From Dyadobacter fanqingshengii (GTDB taxonomy: Bacteria > Bacteroidota > Bacteroidia > Cytophagales > Spirosomataceae), in NCBI RefSeq assembly GCF_023822005.2, contig NZ_CP098806.1:3968001-4032000 (forward strand): a stretch of DNA of 64,000 nucleotides. Direction: 5' to 3'. The notes under the pieces are model-generated. The model had not been told where the DNA came from, ran no database searches, and saw nothing but the letters and a program-made list of their open reading frames with translations. Shown one piece after another: positions 49,328 to 64,000 of this stretch (positions within the stretch are counted from its first letter, which is position 1; each line of letters starts with the position of its first letter). A program made the translations under genes and the position numbers.

Positions 49328-50101
49328 ATGAACTTATACGGCCTGATCGGATTTCCGCTGACACATTCTTTTTCCAAACGATATTTTACGGATAAATTTA
49401 TTCGCGAAAAGATCCGCGAAAGCAGCTACGAACTCTTTGAAATGAGCTCATTGGAAGGCCTTCCCGCTTTGCTAAAAAAGAAAACCGACCTGAAAGGCCT
49501 GAATGTCACCATCCCTTACAAAACAGAAGTAATATCCTATCTGGACGACCTGGACGACGCTTCTGCGGAGCGGATCGGAGCGGTTAACACCATTAAAATA
49601 TACGCCGACGGCAGCACAAAGGGCTTCAATACAGACTATTACGGGTTTCGCCAGTCATTAGAGGAGTGGATGGACAAGCGCGGCGAGAAATGCAGCAATT
49701 TCAGTGCATTGGTTTTGGGAAACGGCGGAGCGGCCAAAGCGGTTCAGGTGGCTTTGCAAGACATGCATATGGATTACAAGCTGGTTTCGCGGCAGCAAAG
49801 TGACGATTCCATGATGTATGAAGAATTGACGGAAGAAGTCATGAATTCGTATCTGCTGATCATTAACACAACTCCACTTGGCATGTTCCCGAAAGTTGAA
49901 GAGTGCCCCAACCTTCCTTACCAGTTTGTAACCAAAAAGCATTATCTGTACGACCTTGTTTACAATCCTGCCGAAACATTGTTTTTGAAACATGGAATTG
50001 AAAAAGGCGCTGCTGTTCAGAATGGTTTAAAAATGCTGGAATTACAGGCAGAAAAAGCCTGGGAGATCTGGACGCAGGAAGAAAATTTGTGGAGCGTTTA
50101 A
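49328..50101 (+). CDS. aroE: shikimate dehydrogenase (NADP+)
   Basis: 257 residues from the ATG at 49328 (MNLYGLIGFPLTHSFSKRYF); the frame is open to 49286 without homology. Reduces 3-dehydroshikimate to shikimate in aromatic amino acid synthesis. Substrate-site motifs GFPLTHSFSK, GLNVTIPYKTEVI (catalytic Lys near 68) and GFNTDYYGF (Asp near 105), and the NADP loop LVLGNGGAAKAV are present. A weak promoter (TTG at 49251, 20 bases, TAACTTCG at 49274-49281) lies upstream. The stop codon overlaps that of ribD on the other strand. Confidence 0.95.
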   Translation: MNLYGLIGFPLTHSFSKRYFTDKFIREKIRESSYELFEMSSLEGLPALLKKKTDLKGLNVTIPYKTEVISYLDDLDDASAERIGAVNTIKIYADGSTKGFNTDYYGFRQSLEEWMDKRGEKCSNFSALVLGNGGAAKAVQVALQDMHMDYKLVSRQQSDDSMMYEELTEEVMNSYLLIINTTPLGMFPKVEECPNLPYQFVTKKHYLYDLVYNPAETLFLKHGIEKGAAVQNGLKMLELQAEKAWEIWTQEENLWSV

Positions 50102-51165
50102 ACGCGGGAATAATAAGTCCAGAGATCCTTTTCGACTTTTTCAGAAGACCGCAAAATGCCGGTCGTTGTGGGCGCTTTTACGCCATTTCCAATCACTACC
50201 GGGCCCTGGCAGCGGCGGATTTCGTCCCATAATCCGGTTTGTAAAAACGCATGGATCACCGCAGCACCGCCTTCTACGAAAACAGACTGTATTTTTCTTG
50301 CTAACAATCCTATCAACATCTGCTCTATTTCGTCAGCGCCGGGGTTTACTTGCAGATACGCCATGTCCGATGTTCCGGAATAGCGCTCCGGAAAGTCAGG
50401 CAAACTGCTTTCTTGCAGATAATTAACAACAATGGTCGGCTGTATTTTGTTAAATAAATTCAATGTTGCCGGGAGCTGTAAATGCCTGTCCAAAACCACC
50501 CGAACGGGGTCACGGCCTTCCCAGTTTCGAACATTGAGACGGGGATTATCCATCAATGCTGTTTTATAACCCACTAAAATTGCGTCTTCCTCAGTCCGCC
50601 ATTGATGTACGCGCATATTGGAAAGCATTCCGCTGATGCGCAATGCTTCGCCTCTTTCATGGGCCAAAAACCCATCGGCAGTTTCAGCCCATTTGAGGAT
50701 CACATAAGGCCTTTTTTGCTCCATGGCAGTAAAAAAACGCTTGTTAAGCGCCAATCCTTCCGAAGGCAGCAAACCAATTTTAACTTCAATGCCTGCATCG
50801 ATCATGCGCGCAATGCCTCTTCCGGACACCAACGGGTTGGGATCACTGTTACAGATAATGACTTTTTTCAGCTTTTTACTGACGATCAGATCGGCGCAGG
50901 GAGGCGTTTTACCCGTATGTGAGCAGGGTTCCAGTGTGACATAGGCGGTAGCTTCGGGCAGTAAATGCGCATTTCCCTTCGATTCCGCATCGTGAATCGC
51001 CCAGACTTCTGCGTGCGGACCTCCATACTGCCGGTGCCATCCTTCTCCGATAATGCTGCCTTCATGAACGATCACACAACCCACCATCGGGTTAGGGCTC
51101 ACATTTCCCAGGCCGTTGGCGGCAAGTTGCAAAGCCCGTCTCATCCATTGAATATCTGCCTCCAT
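50098..51165 (-). CDS. ribD: bifunctional riboflavin biosynthesis deaminase/reductase RibD
   Basis: 355 residues from the ATG at 51165 (MEADIQWMRRALQLAANG); the frame is open to 51198. The N-terminal deaminase domain (about 1-145) has the zinc motifs HAEVWAI and LEPCSHTGKTPPCADLI (PCxxxxxxPxC); the C-terminal reductase domain (about 150-355) starts RPYVILKWAETADGFLA and ends with VFVEGGAAVIHAFL. It makes two steps of the riboflavin pathway, after GTP cyclohydrolase II. Convergent with aroE, with 4 bp of overlap at the stops. Confidence 0.95.
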   Translation of the reverse strand: MEADIQWMRRALQLAANGLGNVSPNPMVGCVIVHEGSIIGEGWHRQYGGPHAEVWAIHDAESKGNAHLLPEATAYVTLEPCSHTGKTPPCADLIVSKKLKKVIICNSDPNPLVSGRGIARMIDAGIEVKIGLLPSEGLALNKRFFTAMEQKRPYVILKWAETADGFLAHERGEALRISGMLSNMRVHQWRTEEDAILVGYKTALMDNPRLNVRNWEGRDPVRVVLDRHLQLPATLNLFNKIQPTIVVNYLQESSLPDFPERYSGTSDMAYLQVNPGADEIEQMLIGLLARKIQSVFVEGGAAVIHAFLQTGLWDEIRRCQGPVVIGNGVKAPTTTGILRSSEKVEKDLWTYYSRV

Positions 51166-51256
51166 CGGGCAAAAATACGAACCTCCTTTTAAAGTCAACT
51201 TTCGTGAGTTCCTATTATTTGCTAACTTTCCGACATTGGAATAAAAAACACATCAA

Positions 51257-52117
51257 ATGACTTCGGCACGTCAGTTATATCAATATATCTTAAAAGGCAT
51301 TACCGTATATCCCGAAAAAGAAGCCCAGGCAATCGCTTTTATGTTGCTTGAGCATTATATGAGACTTCGCAATATTGACGTACTCGTAGACAGACCGGTT
51401 CCGGAAAACACTGCCCAGCCAGACTGGAACACCATTATCCGTCGGTTGAATGACAACGAACCCGTTCAGCATATCATCGGATCGACAGAATTTTGCGGAC
51501 TTGAATTCCGTGTTTCATCGTCGGTTTTGATCCCGCGTCCTGAAACGGAAGAACTGGTAAGAATGGTCACCCGAGATTACGCCGAACCTGACAAAAATAT
51601 CAGCATTCTGGACATCGGAACGGGTAGCGGCTGCATTGCCATTGTGCTCGCACGCTTTCTGCCCCACGTGTCCGTACATGCATGGGACGTGTCCGATGAG
51701 GCACTTGAAGTTGCGCGGGAAAATGCGCGCCAGCTCATTGCAGACGTGACCTTTGCCAAACAGGACATGCTGAATGTGACCTTCCCTTTGCCCGGAAACA
51801 TAATCCAGTTTGATTGCCTTGTGAGCAACCCGCCCTATGTAACTTATTCAGAACAAGAGCATATGCGGCCGAATGTCCTGCGTTTTGAACCACACGAAGC
51901 ATTATTTGTAGAAGACAGCGACCCGCTGCTGTTTTACAAGGCCATTGCCGATTTTGGCATACATCATTTAAAACCCGATGGAAAGTGCTACGTAGAAATC
52001 AACGAGCATTTCGGAGCAGGAACCAAGCAGGTTTTCGAGGAAAGAAATTACAAAAACGTGGAGATCCTAAGAGACATTCACGGAAAAGATCGCTTCGTAA
52101 GGGCGATCTGGAAGTAA
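51257..52117 (+). CDS. prmC: peptide chain release factor N5-glutamine methyltransferase
   Basis: 286 residues. It methylates the Gln of the GGQ motif of RF1 and RF2, needed for efficient termination. N-terminal helical substrate domain (about 1-80), then the class I methyltransferase core with the SAM loop ILDIGTGSGCIAIVLARF near 114-131 and the catalytic CLVSNPPYVTYSE (NPPY near residue 190). PrmC is usually adjacent to prfA; here moxR follows by 17 bp instead. Confidence 0.95.
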   Translation: MTSARQLYQYILKGITVYPEKEAQAIAFMLLEHYMRLRNIDVLVDRPVPENTAQPDWNTIIRRLNDNEPVQHIIGSTEFCGLEFRVSSSVLIPRPETEELVRMVTRDYAEPDKNISILDIGTGSGCIAIVLARFLPHVSVHAWDVSDEALEVARENARQLIADVTFAKQDMLNVTFPLPGNIIQFDCLVSNPPYVTYSEQEHMRPNVLRFEPHEALFVEDSDPLLFYKAIADFGIHHLKPDGKCYVEINEHFGAGTKQVFEERNYKNVEILRDIHGKDRFVRAIWK

Positions 52118-52134
52118 CATTAGACTAATCTTCA

Positions 52135-53088
52135 ATGTATATAGAGAAAATAAAGGATGTGCTGAATGAGATGGGCAAGGTGGTTGTAGGGCAGGATAAA
52201 CTGCTGAACAGACTGCTTATCGGCCTTTTCACAGGAGGCCACATTCTGCTCGAGGGAGTTCCCGGTCTGGCCAAAACGCTGACGATCAATGTCATGGCGA
52301 AAGTGCTGCACCTTGATTTCAAGAGAATCCAGTTTACACCCGACCTTCTGCCTGCCGATTTGATCGGAACCATGATCTATAAGCCCAAAATCGGGGATTA
52401 TGAGGTTAAAAAAGGACCAATTTTCTCGAACATTATCCTCGCCGACGAGGTAAACCGCTCCCCTGCCAAGGTGCAGTCGGCTTTGCTGGAAGCGATGCAG
52501 GAAAAACAAGTGACGATCGGGGACGAAACTTATTTGCTCGACCGGCCATTTGTCGTGCTGGCGACCCAGAACCCGGTGGAGCAAGAAGGAACTTATCCGC
52601 TTCCCGAAGCGCAGATCGACCGTTTTATGATGAAAGTCTACGTCGATTATCTGGAAAAAGACAAGGAATTGGAGGTTATGCGCCGCATGTCGGACATCAA
52701 TTATGACTATCAGATCAAACCGATCCTGAATAAGGAAGACATTTTTGCGATCCGCGACAATGTAAACAAAGTGAACATTTCGGAAACGCTGGAAAAGTAC
52801 ATTATCGAGCTGGTCTTCGCCACGCGCCGGCCCTTGGAATACGGGCTTCGCGATGAAGCGCGCTACATTCAGTTTGGTGTTTCTCCCCGTGCAACCATTT
52901 ACCTGAACAGGGCCGCAAAAGCACTCGCTTATCTGGAAGGTAGGGATTATGTGTTGCCCGAAGACATTAAAGAACTCGCCCCGGACATTATGAACCACCG
53001 GATTTTACTCAACTACGAAGCAGAAGCAGACGGCGTTCGGACTACGGCTATCATTGATTCGATCCTTCGGAAAGTGGCGATCGGTTAA
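52135..53088 (+). CDS. MoxR-family AAA+ ATPase
   Basis: 317 residues, complete AAA+ core: Walker A near residue 39 ([11 protein letters not shown], a GxxGxAKT form), Walker [10 protein letters not shown] near residue 104, sensor 1 [27 protein letters not shown]. MoxR ATPases are chaperones that act with a DUF58 or von Willebrand factor A partner on exported proteins or cofactor enzymes. Such partners usually follow in the same operon but none is present here: the next gene is yidD on the other strand. It is 17 bp after prmC and overlaps the end of yidD by 4 bp. Confidence 0.93.
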
Positions 53089-53294
53089 GGAACAGGATCG
53101 TGCCCGTGACCACCCCAGGGATGACATCGGGAAAACCGTTTTAAGCCCAGCCAGGTGCCTTTTACAACCCCGTGCTTCTGGATCGCCTCAATCATATACT
53201 GCGAACAAGTGGGCGTATAACGACAAGAATTTGGCAGGTAAGGAGACAGCACGCCCTGGTAAATCCGAACCAGCCCGATGAGTAAAAATTTCAT
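53085..53294 (-). CDS. yidD: membrane protein insertion efficiency factor YidD
   Basis: 69 residues, the family length. [19 protein letters not shown] and the core [15 protein letters not shown] with the conserved Cys pair, then [17 protein letters not shown]. It is a small peripheral inner-membrane protein that aids membrane insertion together with YidC. Its stop codon overlaps moxR on the plus strand. In many bacteria it lies in the rpmH-rnpA-yidC cluster; here it is alone. Confidence 0.93.
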
Positions 53295-53324
53295 TTCGCT
53301 TCTTGTGTCAAAGTAGTATATTTG
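53294..53324 (+). promoter_or_regulatory. promoter of lgt
   Basis: TTTC (53294-53297), 19 bases, TATATTTG (53317-53324), matching TAnnTTTG; about 20 bp upstream of the lgt start at 53345. It overlaps the first bases of yidD on the other strand. Confidence 0.55.
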
Positions 53325-53344
53325 GCAATTAACATCATAAAAGC

Positions 53345-54175
53345 ATGATTTCGTATATAATATGGAATGTCAGTCCTGAAATTTTCACTATTCCGCAAAT
53401 CGGTGACTTTGGCCCGTTCCCTGTCCGCTGGTATGGCCTCCTTTTCGCCGCCGGTTTTTTAGTAGGACAACAAATAATGATCCATATCTTCAAGAAAGAA
53501 GGCAAATCCCTGGAAGATATCGATTCGCTTACATTATATATGGTGCTGTCCACCGTCATTGGAGCACGCGTTGGCCACTTCCTTTTTTATGAACCCGAAG
53601 TTCTTTTCAAAAATCCCCTGGAAGTAATTCTTCCTCCTTATGCAGGTCTGGCGAGTCATGGAGCGATTATCGGGATCATTACAGGTCTCTTACTTTATTC
53701 GCGATCCAGAAGGTCTTCCGGACAAACATTCTTATGGGTTGCCGACAGAATGGTTATTGTCATTGCCCTGGCAGGCGCGTTCATCCGGTTTGGTAATCTG
53801 ATGAATTCCGAGATCGTCGGTAAGCCAACCGATGTGCCGTGGAGTTTTATTTTTGTGCAAAACACCGAATTCCGCCAGATTCCGCGCCACGCTGCGCAGC
53901 TTTACGAATCCATTTCCTGTTTTATACTTTTCTTTATTCTCTTGTGGATATGGAATAAATACAAGGCAGCCACGCCGCGTGGTTTAATGGTTGGTGTTTT
54001 CTTCGTTTGGGTCTTCACTTTGCGTTTCATGTATGAGTTCCTGAAAGAAAATCAGGAAGCATTCGAAGCAAACTATGCCCTGAATATGGGCCAGATCCTG
54101 AGCATTCCAGCGGTGTTGCTGGGCATTTATTTTATTTACCAATCAAGAAAGCCATCACATCAGCTGGCCGGATAA
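53345..54175 (+). CDS. lgt: prolipoprotein diacylglyceryl transferase
   Basis: 276 residues with about seven membrane helices. It transfers diacylglycerol from phosphatidylglycerol to the lipobox Cys, the first step of lipoprotein maturation; the window contains about eight lipoproteins that would be its substrates. Motifs: [19 protein letters not shown] (with the conserved RWYG), [22 protein letters not shown] near residue 100 and the Lgt signature [17 protein letters not shown] near residue 145, plus HAAQLYESI near residue 185. Confidence 0.95.
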
Positions 54176-54268
54176 TATTATCTTTCCCGCTTGCGTATTG
54201 CCAGCGTTTCATGGGTTTATTTTTTGATTAAATTGAGTTCTGATTGAAAGAAATATAAACCCAGGAAT

Positions 54269-54886
54269 ATGAAAACATCGTTTATTCTCTCATTTGTTCT
54301 TGCATCTGCAATGCTTCTGAGCAGTTGCGGTAAGAAGCAGGAAGAGCAGGAAGTGGATGAAAAAGAGGTAGAAAAATCCGCCGTAGATGCATTGCAGGCT
54401 TTTGCCGATAAAGCCAAAGAAATGGGCAGCCGCGAAGCTGTTGACCCGATTGACTTTCGGAAGCTAAAAGATTTAATGCCGGAGAAAATTGGTGGCATGT
54501 CCCGCACGGAAGCCACAGGTGAAAAATCCGGCGCAATGGGATTCACCGTTTCTACCGCTCATGCGAAATATAAAGGCGACGGCGACGAAAATCTGGACAT
54601 TGAGATCGTTGACACCGGAGGCATTGCAGGCGTTTCAACCATGGCGCTGGCAGGCTGGTCGATGGCAGAAATTGATAAGGAGACAACAACTGGCTACGAA
54701 AAAACGACCAAAATTGACGGTTATAAAGCTTTTGAAAAATACGATAACGAAGGCAAATCCGGCGAGTTGAATGTGCTGGTAGGAGATCGCTTCGTGGTCA
54801 ATGTGCAGGGCGATCACATTACGGTTGATCAACTCAAAGACGCATTAAAAGATCTGGATCTCACCAAACTGGGCGATCTGAAATAG
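54269..54886 (+). CDS. putative lipoprotein of unknown function
   Basis: 205 residues. Signal peptide with lipobox LLSSC (Cys 20), an acidic linker rich in Glu and Lys (about 22-55), and a soluble domain with the segment LKDLMPEKIGGMSRTEATGEKSGAMGFTVSTAHAKY (first part near residue 68), then IEIVDTGGIAG and a C-terminal part ending DLTKLGDLK. I do not recognise the family. It lies 93 bp after lgt and ends at a bidirectional terminator. Confidence 0.78.
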   Translation: MKTSFILSFVLASAMLLSSCGKKQEEQEVDEKEVEKSAVDALQAFADKAKEMGSREAVDPIDFRKLKDLMPEKIGGMSRTEATGEKSGAMGFTVSTAHAKYKGDGDENLDIEIVDTGGIAGVSTMALAGWSMAEIDKETTTGYEKTTKIDGYKAFEKYDNEGKSGELNVLVGDRFVVNVQGDHITVDQLKDALKDLDLTKLGDLK

Positions 54887-54920
54887 AAAAAAGCAGGAGC
54901 TCGACGCTTCTGCTTTTTTA
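54887..54920. terminator. bidirectional intrinsic terminator
   Basis: 10 bp stem AAGCAGGAGC/GCTTCTGCTT with flanking A6 and T7 runs, placed between the convergent lipoprotein and sigma factor genes. It can serve both strands. Confidence 0.85.
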
Positions 54921-54940
54921 ACGTCCTTATTAAGCAAAAT

Positions 54941-55483
54941 TCAAAAAGCCGTAGCAAAATCAACTTTCTCTCTCAGGATTTGCTTGGCCTTAACCAGTTG
55001 GTTCTTCACAGTATTTTTAGAGATCCTCAGAAACTCGGCGATCTCCTGGTAAGATTTCCCTTCTTCAATATTCAGTTTTAAAATCTGTTTCCGCTTCACA
55101 GAAAGTGAGTCAACCGCCGCTATAACCAGGCCGATCCTTCTTTCACTTTCCTCTCTTTCGTCATCCTCCGCCGATCGGATGGCTTCCATATAATTTTTCC
55201 GAAGCAGCTCGCTTTTTTCAATTTTTTTGAAATGGTCAAATGCCATGTTCCGCAGGCAGGTGAACAGGTAGGAATTAAAATTATAATCGGGCTTGATATG
55301 ATCTCTTTTGACCCAAATCTTAATAAAAACATCCTGAACCATATTTTCCGCCTCTTCTTCATCTTTCAATAGAGATGTGGTGAACCGCAAAGCAGGAGCT
55401 TTATAATAATTGTAGAGTTCAGCAAAAGCCTGTTCGTCGCCTTGCGTTACTTTTCTAAGGGTGTTTTCGTCGGGATAGGCCAC
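54941..55483 (-). CDS. ECF-family RNA polymerase sigma factor
   Basis: 180 residues. Region 2 (about 10-75; EQAFAELYNYYKAPALRFTTSLL, DVFIKIWVKRD, YLFTCLRNMAFDHF) and region 4 (about 115-175; DSLSVKRKQILKLNIEEGKSYQEIA, ISKNTVKNQLVKAKQILREK) are both complete. It is of the Bacteroidota FecI/RpoE-like type, which usually has a FecR-family anti-sigma and SusC/SusD genes directly downstream. Here the downstream gene is a convergent, unrelated lipoprotein, so the partner, if any, is elsewhere. Alternative: it controls the operon at 56-64 kb across the gap, which cannot be shown here. Confidence 0.9.
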   Translation of the reverse strand: MAYPDENTLRKVTQGDEQAFAELYNYYKAPALRFTTSLLKDEEEAENMVQDVFIKIWVKRDHIKPDYNFNSYLFTCLRNMAFDHFKKIEKSELLRKNYMEAIRSAEDDEREESERRIGLVIAAVDSLSVKRKQILKLNIEEGKSYQEIAEFLRISKNTVKNQLVKAKQILREKVDFATAF

Positions 55484-55778
55484 GGTTGTAAATGTTTATC
55501 AAATATGAAAAAGGGTTAACACGTGCATTCGCTCAGAAGAAATATTGTTTTCGCAACTTTATTTCTTGGTATCGTAATATTAATTACGTAATGTTAAAAT
55601 TATATCGTCCAGAAATGGATATAAAATTGACAGTCAGGTTATTATTTAAAATGTCATTGGTTAAAACATTACCAAAGCAATTGCAAATTTTGCTTTTCTT
55701 CGGGTCGGTAAAGTTTTATGTTGAGTGGCTTATTCGTAATTCTTTGATAAATCTACGCTTAGATTTTCTAATTTAAAT

Positions 55779-55810
55779 CGCAAAATGCGTAAACTTATCT
55801 TCATTTTGCG
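55779..55810. repeat. inverted repeat in the 588 bp intergenic gap
   Basis: CGCAAAATG (55779-55787) and its exact reverse complement CATTTTGCG (55802-55810) with a 14-base spacer. It could be an operator or an mRNA hairpin in the leader of the 56 kb operon. The gap 55484-56071 is otherwise AT-rich, with a small second inverted repeat CGGCA-AAA-TGCCG at 55960-55972; I see no gene in it. Confidence 0.5.
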
Positions 55811-56071
55811 CAATCATGTTTTATTAATATTTAGATAACCAAGCGGATCAGATTTGTTATATACACTCATTATCAGTGTTTTCTTAGCAGAATTTACTAT
55901 CAAAACCAGAATTTTTGAAATAGTAGTCAGCGACCGTAGTTAACAATTTTATAACATTTCGGCAAAATGCCGGGAACGCAGATAGCCTGCGATTTGGGAT
56001 AAGTAGTATATATTCCACAAAGCAACCCGCAACCCATTTCCAAATCCTGAATCCAATTAGCATCAATTTCC

Positions 56072-57997
56072 ATGGAACAAAGCCGTATTCAACATATCAT
56101 TGAAAAAATATCCACAGCCAAAATCGCTGTCTACGGCGACTTCTGCCTTGATTCTTACTGGATTATGGATGAGCGCGGATCGGAAGTTTCCATTGAAACC
56201 GGCCTGCAAGCCCAGGCAGTTGCCAGACATTACTATACGCCGGGCGGTGCGGCCAATGTTGTGGCCAATTTATCTGCATTGAATCCAGCCCAAATCCAGG
56301 TCATTGGCACCATCGGCGATGACATGCAGGGAAGGGAATTGCGGTCACAGCTGGAAAATCTGGGCGCAGATACGAAGGCGCTTTTTGTTCAAAAAGAAGA
56401 TTTCAATACATATAGTTATCTCAAAAGACTGGTAGACGGGCAGGAAGAGCCGCGCATCGATTTTGGTGTATATAATGAACGCAGTAATGAAACGGATCAA
56501 AAGCTGCTGGCTGCAATTGAGCAGGCTTTACAGGATTCGGATGCACTGATTTTTAACCAGCAAGTTACCGGCAGCATTAATAATGAATCCTTTATAGCGC
56601 AAACCAATGCGCTTTTTGAAAAGTATAACAACAAAATCGTCATGCTGGATTCCAGGCATTTTAATGACCGTTTTGAAAATACTTTTCTCAAATGCAACGA
56701 CCGCGAAATAGCTTCTCTCAATGGTCAAGTTATACATCCGGGCGAAGATGTACCCGTCACCGAAGTCAAAAAATATGGCCGCGCGGTTTACGAAAAATAC
56801 AAAAAGCCTGTGTTTGTAACTTGCGGCGAACGCGGAATAATCGCATTTGATAAAACGGGCGCCCAGGAAGTCCACGGTTTGCAACTCAAAAGCAAGCTGG
56901 ACACCGTTGGTGCAGGCGATACGGCCATTAGCGCCATTACTCTTTGCCTTGCAGCCGGTTTTGCTCCCATTGAAGCAGCCACTTTCGGCAATTTTGCAGC
57001 GGCCGTAACAGTTCAAAAGTTATACACGACGGGCACTGCCAATGCGCAGGAAATTCTTGCCGTTAGCCAGGACCCGGACTTCATATATAATGCCGATCTG
57101 GCTGAAAACGAGCGTAGCGCCGTTTTTTTACAGGATAGCGAGTTTGAGCTGTGCGAACCGGGCGTTTTAGGAAAGCTCGGACAAATCCGATACGCCGTTT
57201 TTGATCACGACGGAACAATCAGCTCGCTCCGCCAGGGTTGGGAAGAAATTATGGAGCCGGTGATGATGAAGGCCATTCTGGGCAAACATTACGATACGGT
57301 CGATTCCCAGGCATTTCATAGGGTTCTGGGCCAGGTTAAAGAATTTATCCACAAAACGACCGGCATTCAGACTATTTTCCAAATGGAAGGTTTAGTCAAT
57401 CTCGTTCGTGAGTTTGGTTATGTGCCTGAGCAGGAAATGCTGGACAAATTTCAGTACAAAGCCTTATATAATGAAGGCCTGATGGAAATGGTGAATAAGC
57501 GGATGGAAAAATTGGCGGCCGGCGAGCTGGGGCAGGAAGATTACACCCTGAAAGGCGCTATCGCATTCCTGCATGAATTAAAGGAACGGGGTGTAACCAT
57601 GTATCTGGCCAGCGGAACGGATGCGGAAGACGTCAAACACGAAGCGGAAATGCTCGGTTACGCGCATCTTTTTGACGGTGGGATTTACGGCGCATTGAAG
57701 GATTACACCAAGTTTTCCAAAAAAATGATCATTGAAAAGATCATTAACGACAACAATCTGCAAGGAAATGAACTGGCTGTTTTTGGCGACGGGCCGGACG
57801 AGATCCGTGAAGGCAGGCGCGCTGGCGGCATTTCGGTGGGCATTACGAGCAATGAAGTGCAGCGTTTTGGGCACAATCCGGCCAAACGTCCACGTCTTGT
57901 AAAAGCAGGCGCACATTTGCTCATTCCCGATTTTTCGCAATATAAAAAACTCATCAACCTCCTCTTTCAGGAAAATGTAAAATACGCGGACGCATGA
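56072..57997 (+). CDS. PfkB-family sugar kinase fused to a HAD-type phosphatase
   Basis: 641 residues, two domains. Residues about 1-335 are a PfkB/ribokinase-type kinase: GDFCLDSYWIMD, YTPGGAANVVANLSALN near 48-65, and the ATP motif DTVGAGDTAISAI with the catalytic Asp near 283. It is most like the N-terminal kinase domain of HldE, the heptose 7-phosphate kinase. Residues about 370-600 are a HAD hydrolase: YAVFDHDGTISSL (nucleophile Asp near 378), YLASGTD (motif II), DYTKFSKKMI and VFGDGPDEIREG (motif III). The linker includes YNADLAENERSAVFLQD. It would phosphorylate a sugar and dephosphorylate a related one, or do both in sequence; the substrate is unknown. Its stop overlaps the next start (ATGA). 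First gene of the operon. Confidence 0.88.
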   Translation: MEQSRIQHIIEKISTAKIAVYGDFCLDSYWIMDERGSEVSIETGLQAQAVARHYYTPGGAANVVANLSALNPAQIQVIGTIGDDMQGRELRSQLENLGADTKALFVQKEDFNTYSYLKRLVDGQEEPRIDFGVYNERSNETDQKLLAAIEQALQDSDALIFNQQVTGSINNESFIAQTNALFEKYNNKIVMLDSRHFNDRFENTFLKCNDREIASLNGQVIHPGEDVPVTEVKKYGRAVYEKYKKPVFVTCGERGIIAFDKTGAQEVHGLQLKSKLDTVGAGDTAISAITLCLAAGFAPIEAATFGNFAAAVTVQKLYTTGTANAQEILAVSQDPDFIYNADLAENERSAVFLQDSEFELCEPGVLGKLGQIRYAVFDHDGTISSLRQGWEEIMEPVMMKAILGKHYDTVDSQAFHRVLGQVKEFIHKTTGIQTIFQMEGLVNLVREFGYVPEQEMLDKFQYKALYNEGLMEMVNKRMEKLAAGELGQEDYTLKGAIAFLHELKERGVTMYLASGTDAEDVKHEAEMLGYAHLFDGGIYGALKDYTKFSKKMIIEKIINDNNLQGNELAVFGDGPDEIREGRRAGGISVGITSNEVQRFGHNPAKRPRLVKAGAHLLIPDFSQYKKLINLLFQENVKYADA

Positions 57998-60249
57998 ACG
58001 GCCACGCTGAAAGATTCTTTAAAACCGGTTTTTTGCTGCTCTCCTTCTTGCTGGCTGTCTCTTGTAAAAAAGAGCAGCCCGGGCAAACCGCAAATGCCAA
58101 TTATCAAGACAAACCTTTTATTCAAGAATTTCACGAAGCGTTTCCAGTCGGAAATGGGACTGCCGAAAATGAGGTACGGAGCATTGTAGCCGACCAGGAT
58201 CTCAATATCTGGATAGCAACCGCTGCCGGTATTTTCCAGAAAAAGAAGGACAGCCCGGAATGGACAAGCATGATTACTGGCGCCGACTATGGCCCTGCCT
58301 ATGCCGTAGAATCCGATAACAATGGCACTATGTGGCTCGGAACATGGAACGGATTGTATTCCTTTAAAGCCGGTGCCATGAAAAAAGCAAGCGGCCCGCT
58401 GGGACCTATTTCCGCCATTTGTGCTGCAAGCGAAGGCTTATATGCGCTTGGCCCAAAAGGCTTTTGGTTCGACGAAGGAAAAGGCTTTCAAAAGCAAAAT
58501 GACACCATTTCAAAGTCCGTTCGTGATGTTATTTCGGATAAAAACAAGGGCTTGTGGATTGCTACGGACGTTGGATTGTATCATTGGACGAAAACGGGTT
58601 TACGTCATTATTACAAAACGGACGCACTGATCAGCGGCTATGTCAAGGGGCTGGCCCTGGATGCGAGCGCTAAACTTTGGATTGGCGGGCTCGGCGGCGT
58701 TACCATTCGTAGTTTGGATAAAAAAGAAAAAGAGCTCAAACCTGAAAATGGCATTCCGTCTGTTTACGTAACGGCCGTACGATATGCACCCGACAGTTCC
58801 ATGTGGGTAGGCACGCAGGCAGGAATTGTTCGTTTCAAGCCAGATAGCAGCCATTCATTGCGATTTTCAAGGCGCTGGCTAGTGGACGATCAGGTGAATC
58901 ACATTGCATTCGACAAGGAAGGAACGGCCTGGATTGCTACGCCAAAAGGTGTGAGCGCAATCCGAAAGAGAACGATGACGCTAGCTCAGAAAAACGACTT
59001 TTTCTATAATGTATTAATGAAAAGGCACATTCGTGCGCCGTGGATCGCGGGACAGGCGCATTTATGGATTCCGGGCGATACAACTTCCTGGCAGCCCGAG
59101 GACGATGATAATGATGGCGAATACACGGGAAATTATCTGGCGATGGAAAGTTTTAGATACGCTGCGACAAAAGATCCGGAAGCAAAAGTTAAAGCCGCGA
59201 AAGCATTCGGTTTTCTCAAATTATTGCAGGAAGTAACGGATACAGACGGTTTTTTCGCCAGAACCATCGTACCGTCCGACTGGAAAAATATGCATGACGG
59301 CAACCGGACATTTACCGAAAGGGAAAAAGCGGATGAACTCGTTAAAGAGCCGCGTTTCAAGCCGGTGGAAGTACGCTGGCACCTTTCCAAAGATGGAAAG
59401 TGGCTTTGGAAAGGTGATACGAGCAGCGATGAAATGTGCGGGCATATGTTTGGCTACTATTTTTACTACACGTTAGTAGCCGACGCGAACGAAAAAAAGG
59501 TCATTGCAGCGCACATTGCTAGGATTGTGGACCACTTGATGAAGAATAACCTGAATCTGGTGGACGTTGACGGCACGCATACACGCTGGTCGGTGTGGTC
59601 GCCGGACAAGCTGAACCGCGACCCCGAATGGCTTCCCGACCGGAACCAGAATTCGATGGAAATGCTGGCATTCTTGAAGCTGGCCCATCATGTTACCGGC
59701 AATAAAAAGTACGAAAATGAATATCTGAGGCTTATTAAAGAGGAGAAATATCTTGAAAACATGGCGGAAGTTACTAACCAGAACCCCGCCTGGTTTATTT
59801 ACTTCGATGTGGTTTTGCAAGCCTATCTTTACCCTATTTTCTTGAAGTGCGAGCAGGATCCTGAGCGTTTGAAATTTTATAAGGAGCATTTAAACAAATG
59901 GTTTGAAAAACGAAAAGCAGACCATAACCCGCTCATTAACTTCATATATTGTTATTCGTCAGGGGAAAAAGCGGAACTGGACAACTCAGTAGATTTCCTG
60001 GTTGACACGCCGCTCGATCTGATCGACTGGCCGATTGACCATAGCAAAAGGGAAGATCTCAAAATCGTAAGAACGCCCGTTTTGGAAGATCAGCAGGTGA
60101 ATGCATTGCAGCCTGCAAGTTTGCGCATGACGGTGCGATGGGATAAAAATCCCTGGACGCTGGCCGGCGGAAATCCGCAAGTGGAACGTGAGCCCGTTTT
60201 TTGGCTGCTGCCCTATTGGATGGGCCGCTATATGAACATGATCAAATAA
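57994..60249 (+). CDS. exported beta-propeller plus alpha-helical-domain lipoprotein, paralogue 1
   Basis: 751 residues. Signal peptide with lipobox LAVSC (about residue 24). Residues about 50-330 contain six Reg_prop-type propeller repeats (for example LNIWIATAAGIFQKK, MWLGTWNGLYSF, LWIATDVGLYHW, LWIGGLGGVTIRSL, MWVGTQAGIVRF, AWIATPKGVSAIRK). Residues about 345-751 form a helical domain, probably an alpha/alpha toroid as in many glycoside hydrolases and lyases: DDDNDGEYTGNYLAMESFRYA near 367, GDTSSDEMCGHMFGYYFY near 475, and WLLPYWMGRYMNMIK at the end. The C-terminal family has no activity that I know of. It overlaps the kinase gene by 4 bp and ends 6 bp before the sialidase-like gene. Confidence 0.85.
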   Translation: MNGHAERFFKTGFLLLSFLLAVSCKKEQPGQTANANYQDKPFIQEFHEAFPVGNGTAENEVRSIVADQDLNIWIATAAGIFQKKKDSPEWTSMITGADYGPAYAVESDNNGTMWLGTWNGLYSFKAGAMKKASGPLGPISAICAASEGLYALGPKGFWFDEGKGFQKQNDTISKSVRDVISDKNKGLWIATDVGLYHWTKTGLRHYYKTDALISGYVKGLALDASAKLWIGGLGGVTIRSLDKKEKELKPENGIPSVYVTAVRYAPDSSMWVGTQAGIVRFKPDSSHSLRFSRRWLVDDQVNHIAFDKEGTAWIATPKGVSAIRKRTMTLAQKNDFFYNVLMKRHIRAPWIAGQAHLWIPGDTTSWQPEDDDNDGEYTGNYLAMESFRYAATKDPEAKVKAAKAFGFLKLLQEVTDTDGFFARTIVPSDWKNMHDGNRTFTEREKADELVKEPRFKPVEVRWHLSKDGKWLWKGDTSSDEMCGHMFGYYFYYTLVADANEKKVIAAHIARIVDHLMKNNLNLVDVDGTHTRWSVWSPDKLNRDPEWLPDRNQNSMEMLAFLKLAHHVTGNKKYENEYLRLIKEEKYLENMAEVTNQNPAWFIYFDVVLQAYLYPIFLKCEQDPERLKFYKEHLNKWFEKRKADHNPLINFIYCYSSGEKAELDNSVDFLVDTPLDLIDWPIDHSKREDLKIVRTPVLEDQQVNALQPASLRMTVRWDKNPWTLAGGNPQVEREPVFWLLPYWMGRYMNMIK

Positions 60250-60255
60250 TTCAGC

Positions 60256-61425
60256 ATGAAAATATTCTTATCGGCTTTGTTCTGGTGTGCTTCCATAACA
60301 GCCGTTTTTGCCCAAAACAGCGCTATCAAGCAACATATGCTCATTTTCCCGCAACAGGAAAAGCATGTTCACGGAAGCAGCATTGTGAGTTTGCCAAACG
60401 GCGACTTTCTCGTTGCATGGTTTCAGGGAAGCGGTGAACGCACGGCGGATGACGTACAGGTTATGGGTTCAAGACTAAAAAAAGGCGCAAAAAATTGGAG
60501 TGAGCCATTCCTCATGGCCGACACACCGCACATCCCCGATTGTAACCCGGTTTTATTCCTTAATGCGCAGGGAAAGCTGTTTTTAGTCTGGATTGCGGTG
60601 CAGGCGAATCTTTGGGAACAATCCATTTTAAGAACCAGAACGACAACGGATTACAACGGTGACGGCGCGCCGAACTGGACCTGGCAGGATAATATTCTGC
60701 TAAAACCGGATGATAAATTTGCCTCGGAAATTGAGAAAAAATTCAAGAATTTACCTGAAAATCATGCGGGCTGGGCAGGATACGCACCCCGTTACGACGG
60801 CATGATCATGGAGGCTGCAAAAGACCCCGTTAAACGCAGCATTGGCTGGATGACCAGGATAAAACCATTGATTATGGAAAACGGAAGGATCATACTGCCT
60901 CTTTATTCCGACGGTTACAATCTCTCCATGACCGCCATTTCAGAAGATCACGGCGCAACCTGGCGTCCCGGCCTGCCCATTGTAGGACGCGGCCCGATCC
61001 AGCCTGCGCTTGGACAGAAAAAGAATGGTAACCTGGTTGCTTTCATGCGCGACAGCGGCGACCCGCCTGCACGCGTGCATTACAGCGAATCTGCGGACAA
61101 CGGTGAAAGCTGGACAGCAACGCGCAAAACCGATATCCCAAACACGGCGAGCGTGGAATTCCTGGTTTTAAATGATGGCAAATGGGCTTTTCTGGGCAAT
61201 GACATTGATGACGGGCGTTATGAACTGAGCCTCAGAATCTCGCCAGATGAAGGCAAAACCTGGAAAAGGACCTTGATTGAAAATGATAACTCAAAAAAAG
61301 GTGGTTACTCTTACCCGTCCCTCATCCAGACCGCCGACGGGCTTTTGCATATGACCTATTCATATCATCCTGAAAAGGGCAAAAAGTCAATTAGATATGT
61401 AATTGTAGATCCTAAACTGTTATAG
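60256..61425 (+). CDS. sialidase-like exported glycosidase (BNR/Asp-box repeats)
   Basis: 389 residues with a signal peptide (about 1-20, ending AVFAQ). Three Asp-box repeats of the sialidase propeller: SEDHGATW (about 229), SADNGESW (279) and SPDEGKTW (329). The N-terminal HGSSIVSLPNGDFLVAWFQGSGE is typical of the BNR_2 sialidase-like group. The FRIP motif of true GH33 sialidases is not seen and the full Arg triad could not be assigned, so sialic acid is not a safe substrate; relatives act on other glycans. It lies between two paralogous propeller proteins in one operon. Confidence 0.82.
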   Translation: MKIFLSALFWCASITAVFAQNSAIKQHMLIFPQQEKHVHGSSIVSLPNGDFLVAWFQGSGERTADDVQVMGSRLKKGAKNWSEPFLMADTPHIPDCNPVLFLNAQGKLFLVWIAVQANLWEQSILRTRTTTDYNGDGAPNWTWQDNILLKPDDKFASEIEKKFKNLPENHAGWAGYAPRYDGMIMEAAKDPVKRSIGWMTRIKPLIMENGRIILPLYSDGYNLSMTAISEDHGATWRPGLPIVGRGPIQPALGQKKNGNLVAFMRDSGDPPARVHYSESADNGESWTATRKTDIPNTASVEFLVLNDGKWAFLGNDIDDGRYELSLRISPDEGKTWKRTLIENDNSKKGGYSYPSLIQTADGLLHMTYSYHPEKGKKSIRYVIVDPKLL

Positions 61426-61442
61426 AAACCAACCGCCATCTA

Positions 61443-63671
61443 ATGTTTAAACCTGCTTCTATCCCACTCTTTTCACTCCTTTTGATCGCCGGAATTTTAT
61501 CCGTCACCCAAAATGTTGCCCAAACCGTCCATCAGGATAAGCCGTTCAAACAGGATTATAGCATTAAGTTCTACGCAAATGCAGGAACGGACATGCAACA
61601 AGTTGCTGCGGACCGGAATGAAAATGTGCAAATTCTGGGGAAAGAGGGCTTATTACATCCCGAAAACGGCCGTTTTTTATATCCGGGTAACATCCGCGCA
61701 GATAATGCTTACCGGTTTATGAAGGACAAAAAGATCGCCGCGATAGCGACTCATCAAAACCAGCTCGTATATCTGACCGACTCATTTGTCCTGAGCAACG
61801 CCTGGGCCGGAACACTCCTTTCAAAACATACATTACCCAAAGCCAGCATTTTTGCTGGTGGCAATGACCTCTCTTTCCTCATTTCCGATGGAAAATCGCT
61901 GCAACTGATTAATGATTCAAAAAGCATTTGGAGCGGCAGTTTGCCGGATGATGAAGTGCTGGACATTGTTTTTCAAAGTACAGCAAACCAGTTCTGGATT
62001 CTGGGGAGCAAATCTTTGTACAATCTCGCAGCTGGCGGTAATGCGTTGACAAAAGCATTTTCGGGAAGCAGTTTCACAGCTTTTGATTTGGCCAATAAAG
62101 GCAAGAACATTGTAATCGGAACCGCTGAGGGTTATTTGCTTTTTGATATAAACTCAAAAAAACAAACCGGAGACATTTATAAAAAACTGCCTGTTAATAA
62201 AATAGCTGTTATAAAGGAGGTTAATAACCGCATCTGGTTTGGTTCTGACGAAGGTGCGTTCGCGCTTAGAGCTGATGGTAAATTTGATTATTACTATGGT
62301 GAACGCTGGCTGCCGGGCAACAAAATTACCGACATTGCGGAAGGACCGAACAATTCTGTTTTACTGCTGACAAACAAAGGTTTAGGACAAATTATTTTCC
62401 AAACCATGTCGCTGGAAGAAAAGGCAATGATCTTTGAAAAACAGGTGAGACAGCGGCATATCAGAAATGGATTTAATGCCTCGCGCGTGAACATGGATCA
62501 TGGAAACGTTGCAACTGGATATATGGATGACTCTGATAATGACGGTCTTTGGACTTCCATGTATCTGGGCGGCGAGATATTCCGCTACGCAGTAACCAGA
62601 GATCCCGAAGCATTGCAAAATTGCCGCGAGTCGCTGGATGCGATGGAAAGATTGTATTCCGTAACGGGCATTCCCGGCTTTCCAGCACGTTCATTTGAGA
62701 GATCCGGACACATAAAAGAACTGAGCGACAGCGATCGCTGGCAGCATTCGACCGAAAAAGAATGGGACTGGAAATCCACCACCAGCAGCGATGAAATCAT
62801 AGGACATATTTTCGCATTTGGCGCCATGGCCGAGCTGGTGGATGACCCGCCGATGAAAAGGCGCGCCGTTGCGCTGATCGACACAGTGATGTCCCACATT
62901 GTTAAAAACGACTTTTATCTGATCGATTTCGACGGAAAGCCAACCATGTGGGGCAAATGGAACCCTGAGTATGTGAATGCTTTCCCGATCAATGTGGGCG
63001 ACCGCAAGTTAAATTCTTCCAACATTGTTGCGATGCTTCAAACAGCTTATCATTTTACGAAAAAAGAAAAATACAAGGCCAAAGCGTTTGAATTAATGAA
63101 CAAACACGGCTATTTCGAAAATATGATGCGCCCCATGAAAGTGATCGGTAAAGCGCCGGAAAATGCGGACGAGCATAGCAAGCAAATGTCCGACGGCTGG
63201 AACCACTCCGACGACGAAATGTATTTTGTGGGCTACTGGGGCCTTTATCGCTATGCATTCAATGATACGCTCAAAGCAAAATATAAGCAGCAGATCCTGG
63301 ACCACTGGGAAATTGAACGCCCCGAAAAAGAAGGCGCCTGGAACATTTTCACCGCATTAACCGGCGTTAAAGATTTCGACCTGAAAGAAGCTGTCTGGTA
63401 TTTGCAGGAACACCCGCTCGATCTGATCGATTGGAGCATTAAAAACAGCCACCGAAAGGACATTGAATTGCTTGAACCCAACTTCCGCAGGCAAACGACC
63501 AAAGAAGTGCTGCCGCCGGACGAACGTCAGGTTCAGCGTCACAATGCCAACATGTTCAGCCTGGACAGAGAGGGGAGAAATGGCGATGCGGAGTATAGTG
63601 CGGGCGATATCTGGCTTTTGCCCTATTGGATGGGACGTTATCTCGGCGTAATCAGCGCACCTCAAAAGTAG
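61443..63671 (+). CDS. exported beta-propeller plus alpha-helical-domain protein, paralogue 2
   Basis: 742 residues, with a signal peptide (about 1-26, ending NVAQ) and no lipobox. An N-terminal propeller-like region (about 45-325) has weaker repeats than paralogue 1 (RIWFGSDEGAFAL, NQFWILGSKSLYNL). The C-terminal domain (about 335-742) is clearly related to that of the gene at 57994: DDSDNDGLWTSMYLGGEIFRY, WKSTTSSDEIIGHIFAFGAM, HPLDLIDWSIKNSHRKDIELL and AGDIWLLPYWMGRYLGVI. Paralogue 1 has the same blocks in the same order. Conserved acidic residues in DNDG and SSDE are candidates for the active site. Probably another component of the same saccharide-processing system. 17 bp after the sialidase-like gene. 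Confidence 0.85.
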   Translation: MFKPASIPLFSLLLIAGILSVTQNVAQTVHQDKPFKQDYSIKFYANAGTDMQQVAADRNENVQILGKEGLLHPENGRFLYPGNIRADNAYRFMKDKKIAAIATHQNQLVYLTDSFVLSNAWAGTLLSKHTLPKASIFAGGNDLSFLISDGKSLQLINDSKSIWSGSLPDDEVLDIVFQSTANQFWILGSKSLYNLAAGGNALTKAFSGSSFTAFDLANKGKNIVIGTAEGYLLFDINSKKQTGDIYKKLPVNKIAVIKEVNNRIWFGSDEGAFALRADGKFDYYYGERWLPGNKITDIAEGPNNSVLLLTNKGLGQIIFQTMSLEEKAMIFEKQVRQRHIRNGFNASRVNMDHGNVATGYMDDSDNDGLWTSMYLGGEIFRYAVTRDPEALQNCRESLDAMERLYSVTGIPGFPARSFERSGHIKELSDSDRWQHSTEKEWDWKSTTSSDEIIGHIFAFGAMAELVDDPPMKRRAVALIDTVMSHIVKNDFYLIDFDGKPTMWGKWNPEYVNAFPINVGDRKLNSSNIVAMLQTAYHFTKKEKYKAKAFELMNKHGYFENMMRPMKVIGKAPENADEHSKQMSDGWNHSDDEMYFVGYWGLYRYAFNDTLKAKYKQQILDHWEIERPEKEGAWNIFTALTGVKDFDLKEAVWYLQEHPLDLIDWSIKNSHRKDIELLEPNFRRQTTKEVLPPDERQVQRHNANMFSLDREGRNGDAEYSAGDIWLLPYWMGRYLGVISAPQK

Positions 63672-63675
63672 CCTC

Positions 63676-64000
63676 ATGCAATTGCAACGTTATTTTCTTT
63701 CTACATTAATTCTGATTCCAATGCTGTCTTGCCAAACTGACTCCTATCTGCAAGAAAAACAGGTTACCCACGATTACGATTATCATCACGATCTGGATAA
63801 CAACGATAATTTCTCACCGGACGGAAAATGGCTGGTTTACGACACCCGGACAGACAGCGGCGGCATTGCGGAATCGGGGAAAATTGAGAAAGTAAACATT
63901 GAAACAGGCGAGAAAAAGGTCTTATTTGAAATACAAAACAACGAAATATGGGGTCCGGGGGCTGGTGCTGTGAGTTACAGTCCAATGCAGGAAGCGGTGG
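63676..64000 (+). CDS. YidR/DUF3748-like propeller lipoprotein, cut by the window end
   Basis: Only the first 108 residues are in the window. Signal peptide with lipobox MLSC (about residue 19). Then TolB/PD40-like repeats: DNNDNFSPDGKWLVYDTRTD and IEKVNIETGEKKVLFEIQN. The pattern 'N-x-x-FSPDxxWLVYDxR', followed by I-x-x-V-N-x-x-T-G-E, resembles Escherichia coli YidR (DUF3748). It starts 5 bp past the previous gene, so it is part of the operon. Confidence 0.7.
   Translation, partial: MQLQRYFLSTLILIPMLSCQTDSYLQEKQVTHDYDYHHDLDNNDNFSPDGKWLVYDTRTDSGGIAESGKIEKVNIETGEKKVLFEIQNNEIWGPGAGAVSYSPMQEAV

Follow-up and report, generated by a model that had tools for sequence, protein, structure and literature searches.

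A probable glycan-foraging operon linked to an ECF sigma factor in Dyadobacter fanqingshengii, with propeller-toroid paralogues and a conserved 27-bp element

The window analyzed here, a stretch of 64,000 nucleotides from Dyadobacter fanqingshengii (C1:3968001-4032000 of a 6.27-Mb genome), ends in five tightly spaced genes encoding a sugar kinase fused to a phosphatase (KIN), two large propeller-toroid paralogues (P751 and P742), an Asp-box propeller (BNR), and a YidR-like protein (DUF3748). These five genes form a real operon, since their tight spacing and recurrence in other genera go beyond chance, and the architecture of the locus, the linkage of its genes, and a conserved 27-bp element upstream of them are direct observations. 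We think it probable, with considerable room for doubt, that this is a glycan-foraging operon linked to an extracytoplasmic function (ECF) sigma factor, with partner genes that in Dyadobacter are scattered over the genome. A more specific proposal, that P742 and P751 are a new family of surface glycan-active enzymes placed under the ECF factor by a single family-wide 27-bp operator, and that together with a phosphate-moving KIN they make up a foraging system scattered in Dyadobacter and kept together in relatives, is tentative, and we doubt it slightly more than we believe it. The features of the locus are as follows.

54941-55483, minus strand: ECF sigma factor gene, divergent from the operon (Sigma70_r2 and r4_2 above cut-off)
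55786-55812, no strand assigned: 27-bp imperfect palindrome TGCGTAAACTTATCTTCATTTTGCGCA between the divergent ECF and KIN genes
56072-57997, plus strand: KIN, fusion of a PfkB/HldA-like sugar kinase and a HAD phosphatase, 641 amino acids (PF00294, PF00702, and PF13419 above cut-off)
57994-60249, plus strand: P751, apparent lipoprotein with a Reg_prop propeller (PF07494, E 1e-15) and a predicted (alpha/alpha)6 toroid, 751 amino acids (lipobox by eye)
60256-61425, plus strand: BNR, sialidase-like Asp-box propeller of family BNR_2, apparently exported, 389 amino acids (PF13088; signal peptide by eye)
61443-63671, plus strand: P742, whole open reading frame (ORF), 742 amino acids, with no Pfam match above cut-off
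61443-62402, plus strand: N-terminal part of P742, signal peptide (by eye) followed by a propeller of probably seven blades (predicted model, fold matches)
62403-63671, plus strand: C-terminal part of P742, predicted (alpha/alpha)6 toroid with invariant acids (predicted model, fold matches, conservation)
63676 to beyond 64000, continuing to C1:4033052, plus strand: DUF3748/YidR-like apparent lipoprotein, 458 amino acids in full (PF12566; lipobox by eye)

All five genes lie on the plus strand with successive spacings of −4, +6, +17, and +4 bp, and the 4-bp overlap of KIN and P751 is kept in 10 of the 10 Dyadobacter loci where that pair is listed, the window included. A preliminary description of this stretch, made from its letters alone, had proposed a compact operon of these five genes containing exported glycan-type proteins, and both points stand, with signal peptides and lipoboxes judged by eye only. 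Its 5′ border was drawn too narrowly, as it left out the ECF gene and the 27-bp element, which belong to the system on that side.

The propeller-toroid paralogues P742 and P751

Sequence identity between P751 and P742 is 27% over almost the whole length, in keeping with the two propeller/helical paralogues first described, and both are predicted to consist of a Reg_prop-type propeller joined to an (alpha/alpha)6 toroid that carries invariant acids. The N-terminal model of P742 has a pLDDT of 87.9, with fold matches spanning residues 35 to 322. Since a fold search with the whole protein was filled by propellers, the toroid was modeled alone (pLDDT 93.3); the top rows of its search, the comparison with glycoside hydrolase (GH) folds that the preliminary description had suggested, include GH76, cellobiose 2-epimerase, and GH9 folds, with 5-12% identity to GH76 and cellobiose 2-epimerase structures in the rows shown. 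The toroid of P751 was assigned through P751-type toroids of relatives aligned with P742. Seven residues (D47, D130, D175, D177, D270, R351, and D353 in toroid numbering) are invariant across 45 sequences of both paralogue types. The paralogues had at first been given no assignable activity; a propeller joined to an (alpha/alpha)6 toroid with invariant carboxylates makes an enzymatic role arguable, and P742 and P751 are likely the first members of a new family resembling glycosidases or lyases. The 45 toroid members, scanned at E up to 1, matched 12 Pfam families, among which neither GH76 nor a 2-epimerase family appears.

The same fold searches bear on a different role, in which P742 and P751 are ligand sensors or scaffolds, not enzymes, with a propeller of the hybrid two-component system (HTCS) type and a toroid that merely binds. 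Such a role would fit the whole-P742 Foldseek search, where 14 of the first 17 rows, rank 1 included, are HTCS sensor domains of BT4663 or BT4673, and an ECF sigma factor lacking an anti-sigma neighbor would need a sensor. There is no kinase Pfam match in either P742 or P751, as an HTCS sensor would have, and we regard this alternative to a catalytic toroid as distinctly unlikely.

Of 7,998 candidate database proteins scored, at least 6,639 match the toroid profile at E≤1e-3, and the best 120 of these matches have no Pfam domain and, where named, are mostly called hypothetical proteins. A first activity for the toroid would be a lead for many of these proteins and would probably establish a new family of carbohydrate-active enzymes (CAZymes).

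Two further observations concern this architecture. The same genome carries a third, remote propeller-toroid paralogue (L033:8594-10726, at C1 about 2.096 Mb; 32% identical to P751), which adjoins a sulfatase-like ORF (by eye) and lies apart from ECF, BNR, YdjC, and SusD genes; similar copies occur in L039 and L040. Three proteins of 1054-1361 amino acids (P0001-P0003) hold two P742-type units in tandem; each has a late start of its first unit, so that gene calling may account for them.

Gene neighborhoods in relatives and the 27-bp element

A scan of genome contigs with P742 returned 30 loci, the nearest relatives being from Dyadobacter at 86-89% identity. P742-type proteins scoring above 1000 bits are present in 37 of the 37 genomes listed as the own one or as belonging to the same genus, and that search at E≤1e-3 reached 55 of 59 genomes, many through weaker rows that cover only the propeller. 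P742 is present at E≤1e-50 in 93 of 150 genomes of the family (Spirosomaceae), and phylum-wide in 7 of 395, the own genome included.

The neighbor survey covered 62 non-duplicate loci, drawn from these searches, in 27 genus-level groups (Dyadobacter counted), in which P742 or P751 is present by choice; labels are best BLAST matches of at least 30% identity within about 10 kb, with names from Pfam. The survey of conserved neighborhoods proposed in the preliminary description thus finds these genes occurring together in other genomes, contrary to the lack of co-occurrence that it had named as a refutation. By number of groups out of 27, the labels at these loci are P742 26, BNR 18, SusC 16, ECF 15, SusD 14, and P751 10, followed by the YdjC deacetylase 9, purple acid phosphatase (PAP) 7, ceramidase-like 7, HGSNAT/NagX-like 6, and DUF3748, GH20, and DapA-like at 5 each; GDPD, PhoPQ_related, and GH92 occur in 4 each, type I phosphodiesterase, ROK, and sodium:solute symporter (SSS) in 3 each, and KIN in 2. 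Ilyomonas (L028) has an AraC gene, DapA-like, BNR, SusC, SusD, and P742 in one row. A control comes from the more distant paralogues that Dyadobacter genomes carry (L033 and L035-L040), which have no ECF, BNR, YdjC, or SusD gene nearby; their weak neighbors are SusC-type genes in L033 (34%) and L036 (30%) and a GH92 gene in L037 (26%).

In an alignment of the ECF-KIN gap over 14 loci, one block is kept far better than the remainder. This is the 27-bp element, at a distance of 302 bp from the start of the ECF gene and 259 bp from that of KIN. With up to 3 mismatches allowed, the genome contains no second copy, with 0 control matches and 0.00 copies expected in the window. Against a weight matrix built on 13 forms of the site, taken from 4 groups, the loci show 42 matches above 20 bits, which are 40 distinct places in 15 genus-level groups, 11 of them outside the matrix set; the maximum over 3.3 million positions of dinucleotide-matched random sequence was 19.0 bits, with 22 matches above 10 bits. 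All matches above 20 bits fall in the gap beside the ECF gene (in L008 and L054 no ECF gene is labeled, but the gap corresponds), and the orientation of the element relative to that gene is constant wherever it is labeled. One Dyadobacter locus (L030) has only a weak copy, of 16.4 bits.

A relaxed pattern, designed after seeing the data, found 68 places in 65 of the 150 family genomes, two each in G551, G485, and G566, and 0 control matches. At least 58 of the 68 sites have the start of a P742 or KIN gene within 15 kb, and 63 of the 65 genomes with a site have P742, G533 and G556 being those without it (Fisher p 1.7e-16 for the association, uncorrected for kinship). The element could act as an operator or could be the ECF promoter, and the adjacent sigma factor is the likely regulator of the operon. 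We know of few regulons described in this family of common soil and plant bacteria, for which a conserved, single-copy element would offer a direct handle on regulation.

No SusC/SusD pair was seen, by eye and BLAST labels, in positions 50000-64000 of the window or in the following 15 kb. The expectation of a transporter beyond the window, made in the preliminary description, agrees with the SusC/SusD genes beside these genes in other genera and with the best matches in the own genome at C1:5.38 Mb and C1:4.47 Mb. The first of these is a SusC/SusD pair (L085:6546-11657, 50 and 49% identity). The second is a cluster (L084:888-4858) of an AraC gene (34%), a short ECF-like ORF (41%), a DapA-like gene (42%), and an SSS gene (43%), which appears to be the cytoplasmic part that the system otherwise lacks. 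The best YdjC gene lies at L083:9969-10976 (51-54%). Each of these partners is the best of several (18 SusD rows, 10 SSS rows, and 2 YdjC rows). The SusC/SusD pair is followed by a DegT/aminotransferase-like ORF (L085:6546-13005; by eye), unlike the relatives seen.

On the 3′ side, DUF3748 is followed after 56 bp by the mannonate dehydratase UxuA (TIGR00695, 516.8 bits, cut-off 199.55), an SDR near KduD but under its cut-off, a ThuA protein, and a Gfo/Idh/MocA protein, and then by an AraC-type gene on the opposite strand. Lgt, a 205-residue lipoprotein, UxuA, SDR, ThuA, and AP_endonuc_2 recur at 11-16 Dyadobacter loci and in 0 of 26 other groups, a confinement that indicates genus synteny and not function; the Gfo/Idh/MocA label recurs in 3 other groups, at 34-36% identity and in reverse orientation. 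A hexuronate pathway built on the downstream UxuA, KduD-like SDR, and ThuA genes was rejected as evidence of linkage, since none of the three accompanies P742 outside Dyadobacter, and the same holds for Lgt, an unrelated gene on the opposite side of the operon. Farther out are a TonB-type receptor of 824 amino acids within 15 kb downstream, siderophore receptor-like by eye, and a GH125 alpha-mannosidase gene (L002:13031-14476) about 11 kb beyond the 3′ end of the operon core, with a weak match to a twin-arginine translocation (TAT) signal.

KIN, BNR, and DUF3748

Both halves of KIN belong to their families, as the preliminary description had it: the PfkB half matches PF00294 at 103.3 bits (cut-off 25.8) and the HAD half PF00702 at 50.1 bits (cut-off 26.4). 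GAGD, which we take to be the PfkB kinase motif, and FDHDGT (DxDGT) and GDGPxE, presumably the HAD phosphatase motifs, are invariant across 24 aligned KIN sequences, the window's included. The closest NCBIfam model to the kinase half is TIGR02198 (HldA/HldE heptose kinase), which it fails at 143.3 bits against a curated cut-off of 345. Another kinase of the same genome (C1:4456835) is more HldA-like, at 329.8 bits, also below 345, and salvage of lipopolysaccharide heptose by KIN is, given these scores, unsupported. In the heptose route, the HldA kinase is followed by the phosphatase GmhB, which trims the bisphosphate. By analogy, a fused kinase and HAD phosphatase could convert a sugar n-phosphate to a 1-phosphate via the bisphosphate.

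Of the 150 family genomes, 32 carry the fusion, and these belong to 4 of 36 genera; phylum-wide it occurs in 4 of 395 genomes, the own included, one of them by a match to the kinase half only. A comparison of the two match lists places P742 in all 32 family genomes with KIN, a co-presence that is statistically weak because few genera are involved. In five Runella-type loci, the order KIN-GH92-YdjC-BNR stands behind an aldehyde dehydrogenase-like ORF (labeled by Pfam in L072 and by eye in the others). P742 follows further on in three of the five (L069-L071); L072 ends at a contig end, and L076 has no P742 within the 4.8 kb covered beyond BNR. L073 has KIN-DUF3748 with a divergent ECF gene. Outside the family, a KIN fusion (42%) follows an ORF that is GH78 rhamnosidase-like by eye (L074:6874-11557).

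GH33 sialidases carry an FRIP arginine motif near the N-terminus, and BNR has no RIP anywhere in its 389 residues; at the position of FRIP, H39 and S41 are kept in at least 97% of 47 aligned sequences. BNR belongs to BNR_2 (PF13088, 167.2 bits against 31.4) and has three Asp-boxes, SEDHGATW, SADNGESW (S for T), and SPDEGKTW, to be compared with the consensus S-x-D-x-G-x-T-W given in PMC2716378. Its description as a sialidase-like enzyme holds for the Asp-boxes and fails for the FRIP motif, so that the label is a weak one.

These results bear on a nan-like route for sialic or other ulosonic acids, with BNR as exo-sialidase, an SSS transporter of the SiaT type, a DapA-family lyase, and P742 and P751 as accessory enzymes. 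The SSS symporter of a relative (L034) is closest to PDB 5nv9 (E 2.5e-73), which we take to be the sialic acid transporter SiaT, and DapA adjoins BNR in L028 and L047 and SSS in L034, L063, and L064. Beyond the lack of FRIP in BNR, the DapA relatives argue against such a route, scoring under every curated cut-off (35.8 and 49.7 bits against 281 for N-acetylneuraminate lyase). They keep what is presumably the Schiff-base lysine region. CLSSE stands in 7 of 8 distinct aligned relatives (from L020, L028, L034, L063, L064, L066, and L084) where L047 has GTTGE (GxTGE); those with CLSSE are possibly a distinct subfamily. On balance a nan-like route is improbable enough that we give it little weight beside glycan foraging of the kind proposed here.

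The identification of the last gene as YidR-like holds (PF12566, 135.6 bits against 27). In E. coli, yidK, a putative transporter gene presumably of the SSS type, lies about 8 kb from yidR. PMC5293155 reports poor growth of a yidR mutant on gluconate and galacturonate and a growth defect of a yidK mutant on galactose.

Proposed working, candidate substrate, and comparison with known systems

We found no description of this system in the open-licence PMC literature, searched by titles and abstract starts. What we infer about secretion, catalysis, ECF control, substrate, and KIN chemistry can be put together as follows. The propellers of P751, as a lipoprotein, and P742, as an exported protein, would bind a glycan that the (alpha/alpha)6 toroid cuts or rearranges; the BNR_2 propeller would remove a further residue, and DUF3748 would handle a released sugar acid in the envelope. 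Uptake of the fragments would rely on a SusC/SusD pair and a Na+ symporter whose genes lie elsewhere. Inside the cell, a lyase of the DapA family would split a keto acid and KIN would phosphorylate a sugar, the bisphosphate of which its HAD domain may trim, as HldA and GmhB do for heptose.

The neighboring genes point, indirectly, to a glycan that contains N-acetylhexosamine and carries a sugar acid or phosphate as the most likely substrate. N-acetylhexosamine is suggested by the YdjC, GH20, NagX-like, and ROK neighbors, alpha-mannose by GH92, phosphate by PAP, GDPD, and phosphodiesterase neighbors, and a sugar acid by DUF3748 and the DapA-type genes; with the hexuronate genes set aside, it is DUF3748 that still suggests a sugar-acid step. 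A plant glycosyl inositol phosphorylceramide (GIPC) sphingolipid, which would fit a ceramidase-like gene, GDPD, PAP, glucuronic acid, and glucosamine, is unsupported, the ceramidase scoring 28.5 against a Pfam cut-off of 32.1 and the literature found concerning inositol lipids of gut Bacteroidetes.

The phosphatase-type neighbors could instead point to phosphorus scavenging, as in the phosphate utilization systems (PUS) of Flavobacterium, in which an ECF factor, PusCD, and phosphatases would take organic phosphate from lipid head groups and phosphosugars, the toroid proteins freeing a phosphorylated sugar. Near P742 in relatives PAP, GDPD, type I phosphodiesterase, and PhoPQ_related do recur in the numbers given above, and PUSI of F. 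johnsoniae combines PusCD, two phosphodiesterases, and an ECF sigma factor, as described in PMC8115612. The core operon of the window, however, has the HAD half of KIN as its sole phosphatase, and GH92, GH20, YdjC, and BNR are carbohydrate-type enzymes, so that we consider scavenging of phosphorus unlikely.

Foraging of a glycan by this operon and its scattered partners thus remains the reading we prefer, and several findings weigh against it. In the libraries searched, no CAZy-type family shows a sequence link to the toroid, and we know of no activity for any family member. KIN occurs in only 4 of 36 genera and P751 is absent from 5 of 16 Dyadobacter loci with KIN, so neither is essential; the downstream UxuA, SDR, and ThuA genes find no support in the 26 groups outside Dyadobacter. 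The element is missing, at 2 mismatches, from 30 of 93 P742 genomes, two Dyadobacter among them. The own SusC/SusD, symporter, and DapA genes are tied to the operon by homology alone, and since the element is found once, at the core operon, it lends no support to co-regulation of the scattered parts.

The nearest parallels are the polysaccharide utilization loci (PULs) of Bacteroidota, which the relatives resemble in grouping glycosidases and an ECF gene with SusC/SusD and with exported propellers and toroids. Unlike in a PUL, the SusC/SusD, symporter, lyase, and deacetylase genes of the own genome lie at other places, so that SusC/SusD does not stand beside the enzymes at the window locus, and the central toroid family falls outside every enzyme family searched. 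With PUS, as described in PMC8115612, the system shares an ECF sigma factor, a SusC/SusD-like pair, and phosphatases in one cluster, here drawn from the gene content of relatives, whereas carbohydrate-type enzymes are the commoner neighbors. KIN recalls HldA/HldE in its closest model and in its kinase-then-HAD order, which mirrors HldA and GmhB, but reaches 143 of 345 bits. The predicted toroid resembles GH76 alpha-1,6-mannanases and cellobiose 2-epimerases in fold, though at very low identity and without a Pfam match in the 45 members. HTCS sensors such as BT4663 have a similar Reg_prop-type propeller, whereas P742 and P751 have one propeller and, in place of a kinase part, the toroid. Judged from these comparisons, the paralogue architecture matches no searched family, and the locus is best described as a system resembling a PUL or a PUS, with its parts split up in Dyadobacter.
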